Virus record (IMG/VR): IMGVR_UViG_3300035670_000439
Location: 1 to 43,574 of that record
From: a virus
DNA length: 43,574 nucleotides
Reading direction: 5' to 3' (one strand)
The notes under the pieces were generated by a model. It had not been told where the DNA came from, did no database searches, and saw nothing but the letters and a program-made list of their open reading frames with translations. The stretch's first letter is position 1; each line of letters starts with the position of its first letter. Position numbers and translations under genes: made by a program. Shown piece by piece: positions 4,851-29,257 of the stretch.

Positions 4851-6347
4851 TCAGTCGACGGCCTCGGCCGGCGCGCTTGCCCCGGCATTGCCGTTGGCCG
4901 GCGGAATGTTGTTGTCGGCCTTCTCCCGAAGCCACCGGGCCTGCTGCTCGATCACGTCGATGGGGTTGCCGCCGCGCTTGCGGACGATTTCCGGGCCGCT
5001 GACGTAGGCGCGGTCTTCCAAGATGCCGTAGGCCTCGGCTTCCTTCTTGGGGTCGATCCACGGCATCTGCGGCGCCAGGTAGATGGCATCGCTCAGGGTG
5101 CTCGGGTCCACGTCGGCGGGGATGCGCAGCTTTCCGCTGGCCACCGCCGCGGCGATGAAGGTCTCGTAGACCGGGCGCGAGATGCGGCTGATGAACTCGG
5201 CCGAGAGGACCCCGTAGGTGCTCCAGCCCTCCACCAACTCCTGGCGCTGTGCCGAGTAGGTGCCGTTGTAGTTGCGGGCGATGCTGCTGTAGGTCGGCCC
5301 GGCCCCTGCTGCCACCGCGCGGAGCTGCCCGCTGCGGTAGGTCTCCAGGTTCGGGTTCGGGCGATTGGTGTCAATCGTGCCGATTTCCTCGCCGGGCTTG
5401 AGGTCGTCAAAGATCATCCCGGGGCGCATCTGCATGCTGCGCGCGGTGCCGTCGCTCTCGGGCACGTAGAGGTCGGGGCTGCCCTTCTTGATGAAGGCGG
5501 CCATGCTCGCGGCGATCTTGGCGGCGATGCGCTCGGACTCTTCGTAGTCCTTCAGGTCGTCAAAGCGATTGAGCACCGAGGCGAACACCGACACGCCGCG
5601 CAACTGGCGGATGCGGTGCACGTTCTTGAGGTGCAGCATGTCGGCCGCCGCGATGCGCTTGGTCTGGCCCTGGTAGCGCAGGAAGCCGTGCTGCTCGCTG
5701 GGGTCGGCCTTGTAGACGTGGTAAGCGACCGGGCGGCCCCAGGCGTTGATTTCGATGCCCTGCTGAATGACCGGAAACTGCGCGGCCAGGTCCATGGGCA
5801 CGAAGTCGGCCTCCAGCATCTCGATGCTGTAGGGCACCTCGGTGCCGTGGTCCAGGCCCGGAATGCGGCCCACCAGTTGCTGGTTGAAGACCTCGCCGTC
5901 GCGGAAGAACGACCGGGCCAGGATGCGCTCGGCGCTGGGCCAGTCGTGCTGGCGCGTCACCTCGGGGTTGCGCATCCAGTCCTTGCGCAGCTTCAGAATC
6001 TCGCGCGCCAGGAGGTCGTCAATCGTGCCGTCGCGTTTGCGGGGCTGCGGCTCCACGCCGATGCCCTGCGCGCCCACGGTGTTGTTCACCAGCGTGTTCA
6101 GAACACCAAGCGCCAGGTCGTGGTTTTGCTCCTGGTGCCTCGCCAGTTGCCGCATCGTGGCCCCGGCGCGCAGCACGGCGTCGTTGCCACTGCCCGTCTC
6201 CCTGCGGCCCTTGCGGGTGCGGTCAGGCTTGGCGGCTTCGTAGTAGGCGAGGACGGTGCGCGCATGCGCCCGGCGAACGGCGGCCTCGGGGCTGAACCAG
6301 GAGACGACGCGGTCGGCGATGGTGAACTGCGGGTGACGCATCGCCAT
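4851..6347 (-). CDS. Portal protein, lambda gpB family
   Basis: The 498-residue protein matches the lambda-type portal in length and signatures: VVSWFSPEAAVRRAHAR at the N-terminus, then HDLALGVLNTLVNNTVGAQGIGVEP, DWPSAERILARSFFRDGEVFNQ, PYSIEMLEADFVP, LHLKNVHRIRQLRGVSVFASVL, and a C-terminal APQMPWIDPKKEAEAYG. It forms the dodecameric ring at one capsid vertex, through which DNA is packaged and the tail attaches. The gpW-like gene sits 2 bases upstream, as in lambda. The pair, however, lies after the tail genes rather than between terminase and capsid, which is unusual. Confidence 0.95.
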   Translation of the reverse strand: MAMRHPQFTIADRVVSWFSPEAAVRRAHARTVLAYYEAAKPDRTRKGRRETGSGNDAVLRAGATMRQLARHQEQNHDLALGVLNTLVNNTVGAQGIGVEPQPRKRDGTIDDLLAREILKLRKDWMRNPEVTRQHDWPSAERILARSFFRDGEVFNQQLVGRIPGLDHGTEVPYSIEMLEADFVPMDLAAQFPVIQQGIEINAWGRPVAYHVYKADPSEQHGFLRYQGQTKRIAAADMLHLKNVHRIRQLRGVSVFASVLNRFDDLKDYEESERIAAKIAASMAAFIKKGSPDLYVPESDGTARSMQMRPGMIFDDLKPGEEIGTIDTNRPNPNLETYRSGQLRAVAAGAGPTYSSIARNYNGTYSAQRQELVEGWSTYGVLSAEFISRISRPVYETFIAAAVASGKLRIPADVDPSTLSDAIYLAPQMPWIDPKKEAEAYGILEDRAYVSGPEIVRKRGGNPIDVIEQQARWLREKADNNIPPANGNAGASAPAEAVD

Positions 6348-19942: not shown

Positions 19943-20362
19943 CTACTTGCGCGGCAGCTTGTGACGGCGCCGCGTCTCCTGCGCGATGACCATGTAGAAC
20001 AGGCGCCGGCTGATGCCGAAGTGCCGCATGACCTCGATGCGGTTCGTGCCGTTCCACATGGCATAGATGGCCTGGTTCCTGGCGGCGAGGGTCTCGGCCC
20101 GGAGGTCGCGCTTTGGCACGTAGCGGCCACCGATGGCGGCACCCAGCTCGACGGACAGCCGCGCGGCGTCGGCCTTCAGGTCTTCCTGCGTGGCATCAAA
20201 GCGCAGCGACTGCAGGCCCTGCTGACGATGGAAGCGCATGAGGATGCACAGCACGTCGTGCTGCAGCGCGCCGGCCTCTTCAGCTTCTGCGGTCAAAGTT
20301 CCAGTCGTCATGGTCATGTCGGGCGGCAGGTTGTGATCGCTGGGTGGCTTTGTGTTCGGCAC
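19943..20362 (-). CDS. Mor-like helix-turn-helix protein
   Basis: The C-terminal part reads ARNQAIYAMWNGTNRIEVMR, then HFGISRRLFYMVIAQE. This is the shape of the Mor/C-type helix-turn-helix: a W-x-G-x-N turn and a recognition helix after the FGIS motif. I start it at GTG 20362, which has GAGGAG 4 bases upstream, giving 139 residues; an ATG at 20404 is in frame, and ATG 20311 would shorten it. It overlaps the end of the large terminase gene. The place is where gpW and portal usually sit. A regulator of late genes is possible; direct evidence is lacking. Confidence 0.7.
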   Translation of the reverse strand: MPNTKPPSDHNLPPDMTMTTGTLTAEAEEAGALQHDVLCILMRFHRQQGLQSLRFDATQEDLKADAARLSVELGAAIGGRYVPKRDLRAETLAARNQAIYAMWNGTNRIEVMRHFGISRRLFYMVIAQETRRRHKLPRK

Positions 20363-23300
20363 GGCGCTCCTCGCTGGTGATGAGTTCGCTGTTCTCGGCA
20401 TCAAGTCGTCGCGCCCAAGGCGGCGGGTTGTCCCAGCTCAGGCGACCCTTCGGGCCATAGCCCAGGGCCTCGCAGACGGCCAGGGCATACACCCAGAGGT
20501 CCAGGGCTTCGTTGCGGGTGCGGACCTTCTTCCACTTGCCCTTGGCGTCACGGACCTCGGCGCGGAGTTCCTCGAAGTAGCTGGCGTGCAACCACTTGGG
20601 GGCGTGGAAGTAGCCGGGGCCGGGAACCTTGCGGCGGAGCGATCCAGCGACGAGGTCCTTGAAGTAGTCGGTGGCAACCAGCCAGATGGGCATGTCGGGC
20701 ATGGCCCGGCCTTCGTTGGTGCGGGCCGTTCCCTTGACCACGGGCTTGCCGTCGTTGGAGCGGTCGGCGCCTTTGATGAGCATGACGCGTGCGGAGAGGT
20801 TGAGCTTTCGCAGGCGGCGGAACCAGGCGTAGGCGTTCGGGGTGGTTCCCGCCTCGCCGCCCGTGTCGACTGCCGTCCGCAGCACGCGGAGCTCGCGCCC
20901 GTCGCTCGTCTTGTAGGTGGCCTGGACCAGCTTCTGCGTGAGGAGGTCCCAGTCTTCCGGGTAGCCGGCCGGGTCCACTTGAGCGGCGATGCCGCTGCGC
21001 TCGGTGGTTGTGAGGCTGAAGCGGTCGACCAGCCAGGACTCCAGGTACTCGCCAAAGGCCCGGACCTCGCAGACGAAGCGGCCATTGGTGCCGCCCTGCA
21101 CGTCGGCGGTGGCGATGAGGAAGCGCGCCTGGTCGGGGACGTGGAAGCGCGGAAGGTCCTCGATGCGGTCTTCCAGGCCGGCTTCCTTGTCAGCCAGAAG
21201 GTGGCGGGGGATGTAGGGCGCCCCCTGGTCGGTGTTGATCGTGGCCTTGAGGGTCAGGTCGGAGCCGCTCAGGACGTATTCCCGCAGCCCTTGCAGGTAG
21301 CGCAGCAGGATGGAGTCCCACTTCTGGTAAGCGGCGGCCACCCCCCCGAGCCAGTAGCCGGCGATGCTGGAGCGCGGGGCCTCGCCGATGACCTCGCGGT
21401 CGCGCGTGACGGTCTGGCCGTCTGCCAGCCAAAGGGCCTTGGCGGGGTTGTTGAGGTGCGGCTTGTGGCGCTGCTCGATGAGGCTGGCGCAATGCGGACA
21501 GACGACGATGGCGTGCTTGTCGGCCAGGCTCACAAGGTTGGCGCTGCGGACCTCCTCCAGCAGCTCGGCCTCGGTGGGCAGGGTGGAGAAGAGGCCGATC
21601 CCGGGGGATGCCTCGAAGAACTCGGAGCAGTCCGGGCACTGCCAGTACCAGCGGCGGCGGTCGCTGCGGTTGTAGATACCGACGATGCCGGTCGCGGGTG
21701 GGGCTTCGTGCGGGGTCTGCGGCTTCCAGTAGGGGTCCGAGTAGTCGCGGCCAGGGCTGCTCTCGACCATGCACATGCCGCGACTCAGGAAGGTCTGGGT
21801 GCGCTTGAGCCCAAGAGCGTAGGCCGAGCCTTCGCCGTCGATGTTGTCGGGCATGCGGTCGTAATCGGTCAGCGCGACGTAGCGGTAATCCGAGGACGAG
21901 AGCTGGGTGGCGGAGGGCCATCCGATCTTGACCCACATGCCATGGCGGAAGAGCTTGTCGTGCGTGTTGTCGTCGTGCCCGCGCTGGCTCATCAACTCGG
22001 CGAGCTTGGGGCTGTGGCGGATGGCGCGATCTACGCGGGTCTTGCTGTATTCGCGGGCCTTTTCCTGGCTCATCTGCGTGATGAGCATGTCGCCGGGGTC
22101 GCAGGTGACGTTGCGGGCGAGCCATCCGTCCAGAAGGCCTAGGGTGTTATGCGTCGGCACCATCCCAGCGCCAGCCAGAAACAGGTGGCTTTCGTTGTCA
22201 ACCAGGATGCAGCGAACCGGGCGCGTATCGACCGGCGTGACACTGACGATCTGCCGAAAACCGACATCCACGCCAGCAAACCGGACGCCCTCGGCCTTAC
22301 GATTGAGGTCGAACGGGTTGATGCTCCCGTCAATCGGGAAGGTGACGCGGTACGCCTTGCCGACTTTCCGCTCGCCACCGTAGGACCAGCTTGTCTTCTT
22401 TTCCTTCTGCACTGGCTTGAAGCCGAGCGACCGCGCCAGCTCGCAGAAGCCTGCCGCCAACCCAGGCAAGACGCTCACAAACTCGACATTGCCAGCGTTC
22501 TTGTTGTGGCAGCCGTCGGTGTCCATCAAACCCCTCAACAGCGCTACGCGCTGCGCCACTGAGGCGCGCAGGTAGGCCGCTGGGATGTGTTTGTTCCCGT
22601 GGACGCCCAGGGCGTGCAGCTTCGAAGAAAAGCTGCCCGCGAACATCGTCAGCGGCGCCATTTCTTTGCCGTACTTGCGACGGTGATGGCCCTGCCGCAG
22701 GCACTCCATGCACGCGCCATTGCCGGCTTTTCCAGCCTCCGCAAACAGGTGGCCACGCTGGCAATGCGTCGTAAGTCTTTCGCGCAGGTCGACGGCGATC
22801 CAGACAGTGTTGCCCTTGTCGGCCTTGACGACAGCCCGGTGGCCTGCCGCTTCGAACCGCTGCACATAGTGCTCGGCGTCCTCACGGTGGGCGGAGATGG
22901 CTGCCTGGGTGGCCGAACCGTCGCCTAGCCACACGCCAAGGAGGTATGGGTCTAAGGGCAGATCGGCGTCCGGGCACTCTATCGGGGCGGTGTTTCTGAC
23001 CCGGTACCGAAACCGCTTTCGCCCGTTGTTCCGCTCTGAATAGACCGTCTCGGCGGCGATCTCTGCCGTGCTCTTGATCTCAAAGCGCCAATTCGGCGCC
23101 CTCCAATAGAACCGCTCCACGCCCCACAGGTGCTCACTGTCGGCTATCAGGTGCGATCCGTCGGAAAACTCGACGCGATAGCAGGGCAGGCCATGCTTGA
23201 CCGCATAGGCCTCAAGAACCTTTGTTGGCTTACCGTCTGGCCCATAGACCAAATCACCGGCTTGCAGCTCGCCCATCCGCTTCCAGCCGGTCGGCGTCGG

Positions 23301-23561
23301 GATTGGCGTATCGATGTCAAGGCATTTGCCGGTGCGCGCCGGGCCGACGAAGCAGACGGCCTCATGCTTGCGGCTGGCCAGCATGTCCATGGGCTCGACC
23401 ATGTAGGGCGTCTCGGTCGGCGACCAGGGGCCGGAGTAACCGCCCGGCTGGCGAATGACCAGGGAGTCGGCGGCACCCTGCGACACGCTGACCCGGCGCG
23501 GCGGGCGGAAGGCGGCGGCGGCGTGCCGGATGATGGGCGCGGCGGAGGCGAACACCGTCAT
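20280..23561 (-). CDS. terL: Terminase large subunit (gpA family) interrupted by an intein
   Basis: The 1093-residue frame encodes a gpA-type terminase of 700 residues plus a 393-residue intein. Extein: VEPMDMLASRKHEAVCFVGPARTGK at 55-79 is the first half of the ATPase P-loop, and TLGLLDGW continues directly after the intein. Further on come YVALTDYDRMPDNIDGEG (Walker-B-like), paired zinc motifs (CPDCSEFF, CPHCASLI) and ADVQGGTNGRFVCEV (nuclease acidic residue). It cuts concatemeric DNA and drives it into the prohead; it can only work after splicing restores GPARTGKT. The start overlaps the small subunit stop (ATGA). Confidence 0.95.
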   Translation of the reverse strand: MTVFASAAPIIRHAAAAFRPPRRVSVSQGAADSLVIRQPGGYSGPWSPTETPYMVEPMDMLASRKHEAVCFVGPARTGKCLDIDTPIPTPTGWKRMGELQAGDLVYGPDGKPTKVLEAYAVKHGLPCYRVEFSDGSHLIADSEHLWGVERFYWRAPNWRFEIKSTAEIAAETVYSERNNGRKRFRYRVRNTAPIECPDADLPLDPYLLGVWLGDGSATQAAISAHREDAEHYVQRFEAAGHRAVVKADKGNTVWIAVDLRERLTTHCQRGHLFAEAGKAGNGACMECLRQGHHRRKYGKEMAPLTMFAGSFSSKLHALGVHGNKHIPAAYLRASVAQRVALLRGLMDTDGCHNKNAGNVEFVSVLPGLAAGFCELARSLGFKPVQKEKKTSWSYGGERKVGKAYRVTFPIDGSINPFDLNRKAEGVRFAGVDVGFRQIVSVTPVDTRPVRCILVDNESHLFLAGAGMVPTHNTLGLLDGWLARNVTCDPGDMLITQMSQEKAREYSKTRVDRAIRHSPKLAELMSQRGHDDNTHDKLFRHGMWVKIGWPSATQLSSSDYRYVALTDYDRMPDNIDGEGSAYALGLKRTQTFLSRGMCMVESSPGRDYSDPYWKPQTPHEAPPATGIVGIYNRSDRRRWYWQCPDCSEFFEASPGIGLFSTLPTEAELLEEVRSANLVSLADKHAIVVCPHCASLIEQRHKPHLNNPAKALWLADGQTVTRDREVIGEAPRSSIAGYWLGGVAAAYQKWDSILLRYLQGLREYVLSGSDLTLKATINTDQGAPYIPRHLLADKEAGLEDRIEDLPRFHVPDQARFLIATADVQGGTNGRFVCEVRAFGEYLESWLVDRFSLTTTERSGIAAQVDPAGYPEDWDLLTQKLVQATYKTSDGRELRVLRTAVDTGGEAGTTPNAYAWFRRLRKLNLSARVMLIKGADRSNDGKPVVKGTARTNEGRAMPDMPIWLVATDYFKDLVAGSLRRKVPGPGYFHAPKWLHASYFEELRAEVRDAKGKWKKVRTRNEALDLWVYALAVCEALGYGPKGRLSWDNPPPWARRLDAENSELITSEERRAEHKATQRSQPAARHDHDDWNFDRRS
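22146..23324 (-). mobile_element. Intein with LAGLIDADG-type homing endonuclease in the terminase P-loop
   Basis: Residues 80-472 of the terminase frame. It starts with Cys80 (CLDIDTPIPTPTGWKRM, block A), has GSHLIADSEHLWGV (block B, His144), and ends LFLAGAGMVPTHN with the His-Asn pair (block F/G), followed by Thr as the +1 extein residue. The endonuclease repeats are YLLGVWLGDGSA (about 207) and LLRGLMDTDGC (about 341), each with an Asp for metal binding. Between them is a C-x3-H ... C-x2-C cluster. The reading frame is unbroken, so splicing is expected to be active. Boundaries follow directly from motif positions. Confidence 0.93.
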
Positions 23562-24076
23562 GCGGGCTCCTCTTCGGCGATGGGGGCCAGGGCGGACAGC
23601 CGGTCGGCAATGCCGTCCATGGCCTCGTTCAGCGCTTCCTCGACCTGCTCGGCCACATCACCCGAAACACCGTGCTTGCGCTCCAGGTTGTCGGGAATGG
23701 CGCGGATGTCAGACGCCAGGGCAGCAAAGGCGGTGGCGACGACGCGCTCGACCTCCTCCACCGGGATCAGCTCGCGGTCCTTGACCTGCAGGTCGCGCTT
23801 CTTGACCTCTCCCTCGTACCAGGCGCGGCGCTGCATCGGCTCCAGGCTGTCGGGGTCCACGTCCGCCCCCGAGGTCTGGCCGGCGAAGCGCCACTTGCAG
23901 ACCTCCAGGAGGTCAATCTCCCATGCGACCTGGGTACTGCCCTGCTTCTGAACCGGCATGCCCTTGCGAATCCACGCGGCAACGGTCGGCAGCGAGACTT
24001 CGAAGAACTCGGCGCACTGCGCCTTGTTGACGATGCGGATACCCCCCCCTGGGAACAGTTCGGTTTTGGCCGTCAT
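23558..24076 (-). CDS. terS: Terminase small subunit (Nu1-like)
   Basis: 172 residues from ATG 24076. The N-terminus carries a winged helix-turn-helix: RIVNKAQCAEFFEVSLPTVA, then AWIRKGMPVQKQG, the Nu1 pattern for cos-site recognition. A charged helical part follows (RRAWYEGEVKKRDLQVKDRE), then a C-terminal region that should bind the large subunit. It chooses the packaging start on viral DNA and loads the large subunit. The frame is open further upstream, but that part is composition-shadow and the HTH would lie deep inside. It overlaps the next gene by ATGA. Confidence 0.88.
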   Translation of the reverse strand: MTAKTELFPGGGIRIVNKAQCAEFFEVSLPTVAAWIRKGMPVQKQGSTQVAWEIDLLEVCKWRFAGQTSGADVDPDSLEPMQRRAWYEGEVKKRDLQVKDRELIPVEEVERVVATAFAALASDIRAIPDNLERKHGVSGDVAEQVEEALNEAMDGIADRLSALAPIAEEEPA

Positions 24077-24248
24077 TTGTGGCGCCGCAGCAACAACCCA
24101 TAGGGGGCGAAAAACTGTCGAATTCGGCGACTCTGCGCACCCGCACCAGCAAGTGCCCGGGAGGACCCAAAAGCGTTGCACGCGCGCAACATTGCACCAA
24201 AACCGTGCGAATCCGTCGCGCCGCCGCAACACGCTGCCGCCTGCGCGC
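24077..24248. other. Non-coding gap before terminase; possible cos/packaging region
   Basis: The 171 bases between the zinc-type small gene and the small terminase hold no convincing gene. They contain a perfect inverted repeat GTTGC-N6-GCAAC (24175-24190) and a short CCC-ATA-GGG dyad (24097-24105) close to the terminase start. In lambda-type phages cos lies just upstream of the small terminase, so this is the natural place to look, but I see no match to a known cohesive end. Confidence 0.3.
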
Positions 24249-27324: not shown

Positions 27325-27863
27325 GCGGCAGGCCTCCAAGTGAAGACCGAGGCGTTCTGGGCCTCATCGCGCCACATCCGCCCGTGCCTTATCTTGCTGA
27401 TGGCCTGCGGGGTCAGGCCAGTGCGTCCGGCCAGCGCCACATTGGTCTCGCTGCTGCTCAGGATCTCCGCCCGCAACTCCGGCGTGTAGCGGGAGAGACC
27501 GCGCGAGCGGCGCGTGCGGGCAATGAGCGCACGCTGCAGCACGGGCAAGGGCTTGCTTCGCAGCTGGCAGTAGGCCGCCCACTTCATGAGCTTTCGGTGG
27601 GCGGGGTTTCCGCAGGCGCGGTCGCCGCAGTTCGGCGCCCAGATGGTTCCCTTGGCCGGCAGCGAACCCGTCTTGAGCACGCTCACCAGGGCGCTCAGGC
27701 TGAGCACCTTGCCCAGAGCCGGGCAGTAGATGATCCCGGTCGATTGCTTTCGGGCGGCCTGGAAAATCCAGCACCCAGTCAACTCATCGATCACAGACCG
27801 AAGGCGCAGGTCCTCAAAATCGCGGACACCGCCAAGGTCCTGCCCTTTCTTGACGCCAGCCAT
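27321..27863 (-). CDS. HNH-like / zinc-motif protein with C-terminal HTH
   Basis: 180 residues. The N-terminal half has TGCWIFQAARKQSTGIIYCP and IWAPNCGDRACGNPAHRKLM, which resembles the CW...H-x-C-x-N-x-x-C-x-N-P-x-H-L motif of phage HNH proteins, but the first catalytic His is replaced (NCGD). The C-terminal half (TPELRAEILSSSETNVALAG, QAISKIRHGRMWRD) is an HTH or NUMOD-like DNA-binding module. It may be a decayed homing-type endonuclease or a DNA-binding protein. It sits between the helicase and the nin-like block. Confidence 0.65.
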   Translation of the reverse strand: MAGVKKGQDLGGVRDFEDLRLRSVIDELTGCWIFQAARKQSTGIIYCPALGKVLSLSALVSVLKTGSLPAKGTIWAPNCGDRACGNPAHRKLMKWAAYCQLRSKPLPVLQRALIARTRRSRGLSRYTPELRAEILSSSETNVALAGRTGLTPQAISKIRHGRMWRDEAQNASVFTWRPAA

Positions 27864-29257
27864 CAGAGATCCCCTCCCCTGCTCTTCGGGCTGAACTCAT
27901 CGAGCCGGCGCGTTGACTCCAGCCAACGCTGGCGCTCAAGGTCGAAGCCCATGACGGCCACGCCGCGCTTGCCCGATCGGTTCTTGGCAACGTCCATGCC
28001 GGCGTGAACGAAAGTCTTGCCCTCGTAGTCCTCGACGGGCCAGAGGAAGAGGATCGTGTCGGCGTCCTGCTCGATCTCGCCCGAGTCCCGAAGGTCGGAC
28101 AGCTGCGGGCGCTTGCCGGGGCGCTTCTCCACCTCGCGGTTGAGCTGGCTCAGGGCAATCACGCAGATGCCCAGCTCCATGCTCAGCGCCTTGAGCCCGC
28201 GGCTGATCTCGCCCACCTGGGCCGTGCGGTTCTCCTTCGTGAGCGTGGAGCTGCAGAGCTGCAGGTAGTCCACCACCAGCACCTTGAGGCCCTTGATGCG
28301 GCGGGCCTTGGCGCGGATGTCGTTGAGCGTGAGCGCCTGCTGGTCATCAATCCACAGCGGCATGCGCGCCATTTCGTCCACCGCTTCGGTCAGCGCCCTC
28401 CAGCTTTCGTCGCTGAGCCGGCCGCTGGTGATTTCCTCACCGCTCACGCCGGCCACGCTCGCGGCGGCGCGATCGGTCAGCTCATCCGCCGGCATTTCCT
28501 GGCTCAGGAACAGCACGCCGCGCCCATCGCGCGCCAAGCGCATGCCGATCGACATGGACGCCGAGGACTTGCCCACGCCCGGCCGAGCGGCCAGGATCAG
28601 CAACTTTCCGGGCCGCAGGCCGCCCTTGAGGTAGCGATCCAGACTGGGCCACCCCGTTGGCCAGCACTCGCCCAAGTCACCCTCGGCCGCGGCGTTGATG
28701 CGGTCCATGACGCCGGTAATGAGGTCGCGCATGAGCTTTGGCTCACGGCCGGCGCGCTTGGTCTCGTTGGCGATGCCTAGAACCAGGGCTTCCGCCTCGT
28801 CCAGCACTGTGGCCACGGGCCGGCCTTTGGTGTTCATGGCCGCGGTGGCGATCTCGTCGCCTGCAGTGACCAGACGGCGCAGCACCGATCGCTCCCGCAC
28901 GATCTCGGCGTAGCGGCGCAGGTTCGACGCGCTGGGCACGGCCTGGGCCAAGGCGTTGAGGTAGTCCAAGCCGCCGCAGTCCTCGGCCTTGTCGGCGCGG
29001 CGCAGCTGCTCGTGCACCGTGATGACATCGGCCGGCTTCCCGGCGGTGATGAGCTGGCCGAGCGCCGCAAAGATGGCCCGATGGTCGGGGCGGTAGAAGT
29101 CGCCGTCCGCCAGCAGGTCCGCAGCGCGGTCCCATGCGGCGTTGTCGATCAGCAGGCCGCCAAGGACCGACTGCTCGGCCTCGATCGACTGCGGCGGCAC
29201 GCGCAAGCCAGCTACTTCAGCGTCGATCGGCGGCGCGGGGCGGGTATCGATGCTCAT
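27863..29257 (-). CDS. dnaB: Replicative DNA helicase, DnaB family
   Basis: 464 residues. The N-terminal domain has PPQSIEAEQSVLGGLLIDN and FYRPDHRAIFAALGQLITAG, standard for DnaB. The RecA-like C-terminal domain contains ILAARPGVGKSSASMSIG (Walker A), VLFLSQEM, LKVLVVDYLQLCSS (Walker B), ALSQLNREVEKR and DADTILFLW. It unwinds DNA at the phage fork. The start overlaps the stop of the O-like gene by ATGA, so initiator and helicase are made together. The phage does not need the host helicase, only priming and polymerase. Confidence 0.96.
   Translation of the reverse strand: MSIDTRPAPPIDAEVAGLRVPPQSIEAEQSVLGGLLIDNAAWDRAADLLADGDFYRPDHRAIFAALGQLITAGKPADVITVHEQLRRADKAEDCGGLDYLNALAQAVPSASNLRRYAEIVRERSVLRRLVTAGDEIATAAMNTKGRPVATVLDEAEALVLGIANETKRAGREPKLMRDLITGVMDRINAAAEGDLGECWPTGWPSLDRYLKGGLRPGKLLILAARPGVGKSSASMSIGMRLARDGRGVLFLSQEMPADELTDRAAASVAGVSGEEITSGRLSDESWRALTEAVDEMARMPLWIDDQQALTLNDIRAKARRIKGLKVLVVDYLQLCSSTLTKENRTAQVGEISRGLKALSMELGICVIALSQLNREVEKRPGKRPQLSDLRDSGEIEQDADTILFLWPVEDYEGKTFVHAGMDVAKNRSGKRGVAVMGFDLERQRWLESTRRLDEFSPKSRGGDL

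Follow-up and report, generated by a model that had tools for sequence, protein, structure and literature searches.

The terminase gene and its intein

The DNA analysed here, referred to as the window, consists of positions 1 to 43,574 of the virus record IMGVR_UViG_3300035670_000439. On its minus strand a single open reading frame of 1093 codons without a stop (23561-20280) encodes a large terminase subunit interrupted by an in-frame insert. Pfam identified the two domains of gpA-type terminases in the flanking sequence, GpA_ATPase (PF05876, 9.7e-67) and GpA_nuclease (PF20454, 2.6e-70), and the Walker A loop (P-loop) of the terminase, GPARTGK^T, was split between its Lys and Thr residues. The features of this locus, all on the minus strand, were:

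23558..24232, minus: terminase small subunit, directly upstream of the large subunit (phrog_141, 7.4e-27; Pfam DUF1441)
20280..23561, minus: precursor of the gpA-type large terminase subunit, 1093 aa, or 700 aa when spliced, from the open reading frame and the GpA_ATPase and GpA_nuclease domains
23325..23561, minus: N-extein, 79 aa, ending GPARTGK, from the open reading frame and empty-site relatives
22146..23324, minus: 393-aa intein with a HINT splicing domain and a LAGLIDADG endonuclease, from the open reading frame, Pfam, and solved-structure and fold matches
23322..23324, minus: intein Cys1 (precursor Cys80); Ala, Pro, Cys, Ser or Gly in relatives
23181..23183, minus: intein Cys48, which corresponds to Cys48 of Mycobacterium smegmatis DnaBi1, a redox partner there
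23121..23162, minus: block B, DGSHLIADSEHLWG, with Asp62, His65 and Trp67 (class 3 DxxH and Trp B:12)
22917..22943, minus: LAGLIDADG repeat 1, LLGVWLGDG, with Asp135 (intein residues 128-136)
22701..22763, minus: C-x2-GH-x12-CxxC motif (intein residues 188-208), probable zinc site, in 29 of 46 gpA-type inteins
22512..22541, minus: LAGLIDADG repeat 2, LLRGLMDTDG, with Asp268 and Asp270 (intein residues 262-271)
22209..22211, minus: Cys372, block F:4, predicted initiating nucleophile (class 3)
22146..22166, minus: block G, GMVPTHN, with Thr391 (G:5), His392 and Asn393
20280..22145, minus: C-extein, 621 aa, beginning with the +1 Thr (TLGLLDGW), from the open reading frame and empty-site relatives

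In precursor numbering, GPARTGK occupies residues 73-79, the intein begins at Cys80 and ends at His471-Asn472, and Thr473 is the +1 residue. The insert contained intein blocks A, B, F, and G, the block B His (B:10), a terminal Asn, and a hydroxyl residue at +1. The Pfam family LAGLIDADG_3 matched within it, and both LAGLIDADG motifs that mark a homing endonuclease kept their acidic residues (D135 and D268/D270). The initial annotation, which had described a full-length intein of 393 aa in the terminase P-loop at 22146-23324, with intact splice residues and both endonuclease repeats, was thus confirmed to the base. The splicing domain itself was not identified above cut-offs by Pfam or NCBIfam. 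The C-x2-GH-x12-CxxC motif lies between the endonuclease repeats and was absent from the shorter gpA-type inteins; this insert probably binds zinc, and could help in DNA recognition.

The exact junction was established by comparison with intein-free homologues, the check that had been named when the intein was first noticed. Viral contigs were scanned with the C-extein alone, a query blind to the insert, which gave 73 gpA loci, and the upstream frame could be read in 71. In 65 of these the P-loop ran straight into the C-extein, and the other six had an intein. The empty homologues read GPARTGK^T across the junction and none aligned through the insert, both ends of which are present. The nearest terminase, L004 (92% identity in the C-extein), has no insert: its DNA is joined cleanly, reading ...ggaaag^acgatg..., where that of the window reads ...ggcaaa^TGC...AAC^accct. 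This comparison supports the reading as an intein. The sequence itself shows the anatomy, the exact junction, the membership of the family, and a distribution that points to mobility; the intein is real, not a chance match, and very likely functional.

The phage had also been described as lambda-like, which is borne out by the terminase, NinG, and the portal family and not by the gene order. A gene for a lambda-family portal (Phage_portal_2, 3.4e-90) was found at 4851-6347 on the minus strand, past the tail genes, unlike L009 and L017, in which the portal gene lies between the terminase and the capsid protease. A portal-like match was sought between terminase and capsid in the sister locus L004, and none was found. 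Because L004 is likewise without a portal there, the placement in the window probably characterises the clade and does not stem from misassembly. The phage also encodes its own DnaB helicase (27863-29257, minus strand), which is free of inteins; the P-loops of DnaB helicases are a common home of class 3 inteins.

Predicted structure of the intein

An AlphaFold2 model of the intein, for which 46 gpA-type inteins were aligned as input, had a mean pLDDT of 94.2 and a pTM of 0.89. When compared with solved structures, the model as a whole resembled PI-SceI (E 6e-20), itself an intein with a LAGLIDADG endonuclease. The splicing domain of the model was closest to 6rix and 6bs8, both class 3 DnaB inteins, at TM scores of 0.84-0.85 on the target. 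Sequence searches agreed, finding the splicing domain similar to solved class 3 DnaB inteins at an E-value of about 1e-29. The model therefore assigns a HINT fold to the window intein with high confidence.

Splicing class

Class 3 inteins have been defined by signatures in which the N-terminal junction is opened by the Cys at block F:4 rather than by residue 1 (PMC3196547, PMC5222942, PMC6195587). The window intein had the complete signature: DxxH (Asp62 and His65), Trp67 at B:12, Cys372 at F:4, Thr391 at G:5, and Thr473 at +1, where class 3 inteins have Ser or Thr. Trp67, Cys372, and Thr391 make up the WCT triad. It also had Cys at position 1, a possible counterpart of the Cys, Ser, or Thr that forms the linear thioester in class 1 inteins, while the block B Thr of class 1 was replaced by Asp62. 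The original definition of class 3 ruled out a nucleophile at position 1; elsewhere such a nucleophile is described as merely not required (PMC5222942). The splice ends given in the initial annotation, Cys80 and His-Asn, are present, but Cys80 had been treated as the splice nucleophile, and the WCT triad had been overlooked. To our knowledge, inteins that combine the triad with a position-1 nucleophile can be assigned to a class only by mutagenesis. Inteins of this kind were reportedly put to the test by Tori and Perler in 2011.

A set of 147 non-redundant WCT inteins was assembled from two scans with an intein alignment as the query and from loci found earlier; an alignment query was needed because a scan of viral sequences with the single protein gave only two relatives of the intein. 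Terminases of the gpA type accounted for 57 of the 147, and in the majority of these, though not in every one, a P-loop could be read at the junction. The search patterns included Trp67 and Thr-His-Asn, so the conservation of these residues was partly selected. No pattern covered F:4, and the presence of Cys there in all 147 relatives is therefore not a selection effect. Position 1, likewise outside every pattern, was Ala in 119 relatives, Pro in 11, Cys in nine, and Gly, Ser, Leu, or Gln in the few others.

In the intein tree the window intein fell in a clade of eight members (support 100/100), all at the gpA P-loop, of which six had Cys1 and two (L016 and L158) had Ala1 with the other splicing residues the same as in the window intein. 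The rest of the tree was mostly Ala1, and Cys1 turned up independently placed on several branches among the class 3 inteins. A single origin of the six Cys1 inteins was not rejected by the AU test (p 0.173), nor did the tree establish it, so that Cys1 may have arisen once or twice in the clade. A class 3 lineage that gained a position-1 Cys would be the most economical reading of this tree, though counts on an unrooted tree alone cannot give the direction of the change. Close gpA-type inteins were sought in 401 sampled genomes from the family of Ramlibacter, and none was found outside Ramlibacter. In the Ramlibacter aurantiacus genome of locus L090 (genome G001), a single bacterial contig (C27) had two separate copies of a gpA-type terminase intein, with about 118 kb between them. 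In L084 one open frame of 1415 aa, starting at 2094, encodes a gpA-type terminase that contains a pair of class 3 inteins: the first interrupts the P-loop, and the second lies 66 residues downstream.

Proposed splicing route and alternatives

The best explanation of these data, and in our judgement a probable one, is a mobile, full-length intein of the class 3 lineage that splits the P-loop of a gpA-type terminase and has Cys1 besides the WCT triad. The terminase gene would be translated as a single 1093-aa precursor, in which Cys372, activated by His65 and Thr391, would attack the Lys79-Cys80 bond. The N-extein would then be transferred to Thr473, Asn472 (intein Asn393) would cyclise, and the exteins would be joined into a 700-aa terminase with an intact Walker A loop, GPARTGKT. 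Until then the precursor would presumably be inactive as an ATPase, and we infer, on sound grounds, that DNA packaging depends on splicing. The LAGLIDADG domain would direct homing into the empty terminase P-loops of co-infecting phages.

Cys372 is most likely the initiator rather than Cys80, because the WCT triad is complete, the F:4 Cys is universal while position 1 is mostly Ala, and relatives at the same site and in the same clade have Ala1. Were the intein a canonical class 1 intein, the initial N-S acyl shift would fall to Cys80, leaving the WCT residues as relics or bystanders. Cys1, His65, Asn393, and Thr+1 are all in place for this route, and six clade members keep Cys1; on the other hand, block B has Asp62 where class 1 has Thr, and L016 and L158, close relatives at the same site, have Ala1 while their remaining splicing residues are unchanged. 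With the triad complete and Ala1 neighbours this close, the plain class 1 assignment was set aside as the less likely one, and we regard that route as unlikely. Splicing might instead start from either Cys1 or Cys372, with Cys1 serving as a second entry or a backup. Both nucleophiles lie in well-modelled active-site blocks, and the recurrence of Cys1 on separate class 3 branches favours such a dual route, but gains of a single Cys residue could be neutral, and we give it little credence.

That the insert is a non-splicing remnant or an assembly artefact, which would leave a dead terminase and a defective phage, is very improbable. In its favour, the record consists of just one virus contig. 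Against it, the frame is open throughout, every catalytic position is intact, the extein domains are intact, the surrounding structural genes are normal, and homologues at the same site come from independent isolates and contigs. An artefact or frame-shifted remnant was rejected on the single open frame and on these independent records. The window intein is filed with the class 3 lineage, as one that probably works like class 3, and not as a strict member, because Cys1 is present; close relatives at the same site have Ala1. It is possible, if doubtful, that class 3 inteins of one allelic family re-acquired Cys1 at this one site and stand as natural intermediates between the two classes, perhaps able to take either route. 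A direct origin of class 3 from class 1 has been argued to be impossible (PMC7664689), and a re-acquired Cys1, if true, would bear directly on the interconversion of the two classes.

Comparison with known inteins

Inteins in the P-loop of phage terminases are known from mycobacteriophages. TerL1-a splits the P-loop between its invariant Lys and Thr, K^T, called the "classic" site, and a LAGLIDADG endonuclease was reported for TerL1-b; the terminase inteins of that survey were confined to terminase_1, terminase_6, and one family described as terminase-like (PMC5050341). Like the window intein, TerL1-a and TerL1-b interrupt the P-loop of a large terminase, but one of the Terminase_1 family rather than gpA, and the best mycobacteriophage intein was only 37% identical to that of the window. 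Public records also have such inteins in gpA-type terminases. Acidovorax phage ACF1 (MZ547449) has an intein at the same GPARTGK^T site with Cys1 and the WCT triad, 55% identical in the alignment; it differs in its length (351 aa), in lacking the insert with the C-x2-GH-x12-CxxC motif, and in having Asn for the catalytic Asp in repeat 1. Its GenBank record names the terminase and leaves the intein unannotated. The Marinobacter phage-plasmid phiTHAF39 (NZ_CP045368) has a mini-intein in the P-loop of its gpA-type terminase, also with the WCT triad, but with Ala1 and without an endonuclease domain.

The suggestion that the intein may be a new allele was therefore abandoned: the K^T site is filled in many gpA terminases, including those of ACF1 and phiTHAF39, and most of the 57 gpA-type terminases with related inteins have them at the P-loop. 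The window intein is a member of a widespread family at this site. A search of a literature collection with few subscription journals turned up no paper on inteins in gpA-type terminases. With this family, the terminases known to have P-loop inteins come to include those of the gpA (lambda-type) kind, which is an extension rather than a new kind of intein. Such inteins are common, yet in the public records seen the genes are labelled plain terminase.

Where the sequences aligned, the splicing domain shared about 42% identity with those of M. smegmatis DnaBi1 (PDB 6bs8) and M. chimaera MchDnaB1 (PDB 6rix). The WCT triad, DxxH, Cys48, and insertion in a P-loop before a hydroxyl residue are shared with these mycobacterial DnaB inteins. 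DnaBi1 starts with Ala, has no endonuclease, and resides in a helicase, whereas the window intein starts with Cys, has a LAGLIDADG domain, and resides in a terminase. In DnaBi1, an oxidative disulfide between Cys48, there termed non-conserved, and the catalytic Cys stops splicing (PMC6195587). Among the relatives assembled here Cys48 was present in 141 of 147 (57 of 57 gpA-type inteins and 84 of 90 others of the same class). Because this near-invariant Cys48-Cys372 pair matches the redox pair of DnaBi1, redox control of terminase maturation through Cys48 and Cys372 is a fair hypothesis, by analogy, and no more; a switch of the DnaBi1 type could then apply to phage DNA packaging.

Mobility and the probable homing cycle

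The presence and absence of the intein was mapped onto a tree of C-exteins, disregarding two distant rows with very long branches. At least eight changes were required, and the window was sister to the empty locus L004. The closest intein, that of L002, was 74% identical to the intein of the window, while the terminases were only 55% identical, the opposite of the order expected from shared descent. This relationship, together with the scattered presence on the terminase tree, indicates an intein that is mobile, as if moved by homing.

To judge from their sequences, the gpA-type inteins display the usual homing cycle, with full-length, endonuclease-mutated, and endonuclease-lost forms. The inteins of the window, L002, L011, and L016 were full-length with intact acidic residues. 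In ACF1 (L077, 460-1512), L003, L158, L192, L199, L214, and L233, Asp in repeat 1 was replaced by Asn while all splicing residues were kept; because Asn stands for the catalytic Asp of the first LAGLIDADG motif, a dead endonuclease is suggested for these inteins. The endonuclease was lost in L010 (162 aa) and phiTHAF39. With Cys1 and Ala1 variants and these three forms at one site, the family offers a natural series bearing on class 3 versus class 1 splicing. The mini-intein of L010 (1474-1959) and the full-length intein of L011 (878-2059) had nearly identical splicing halves, and were found in closely related terminases from the same metagenome.
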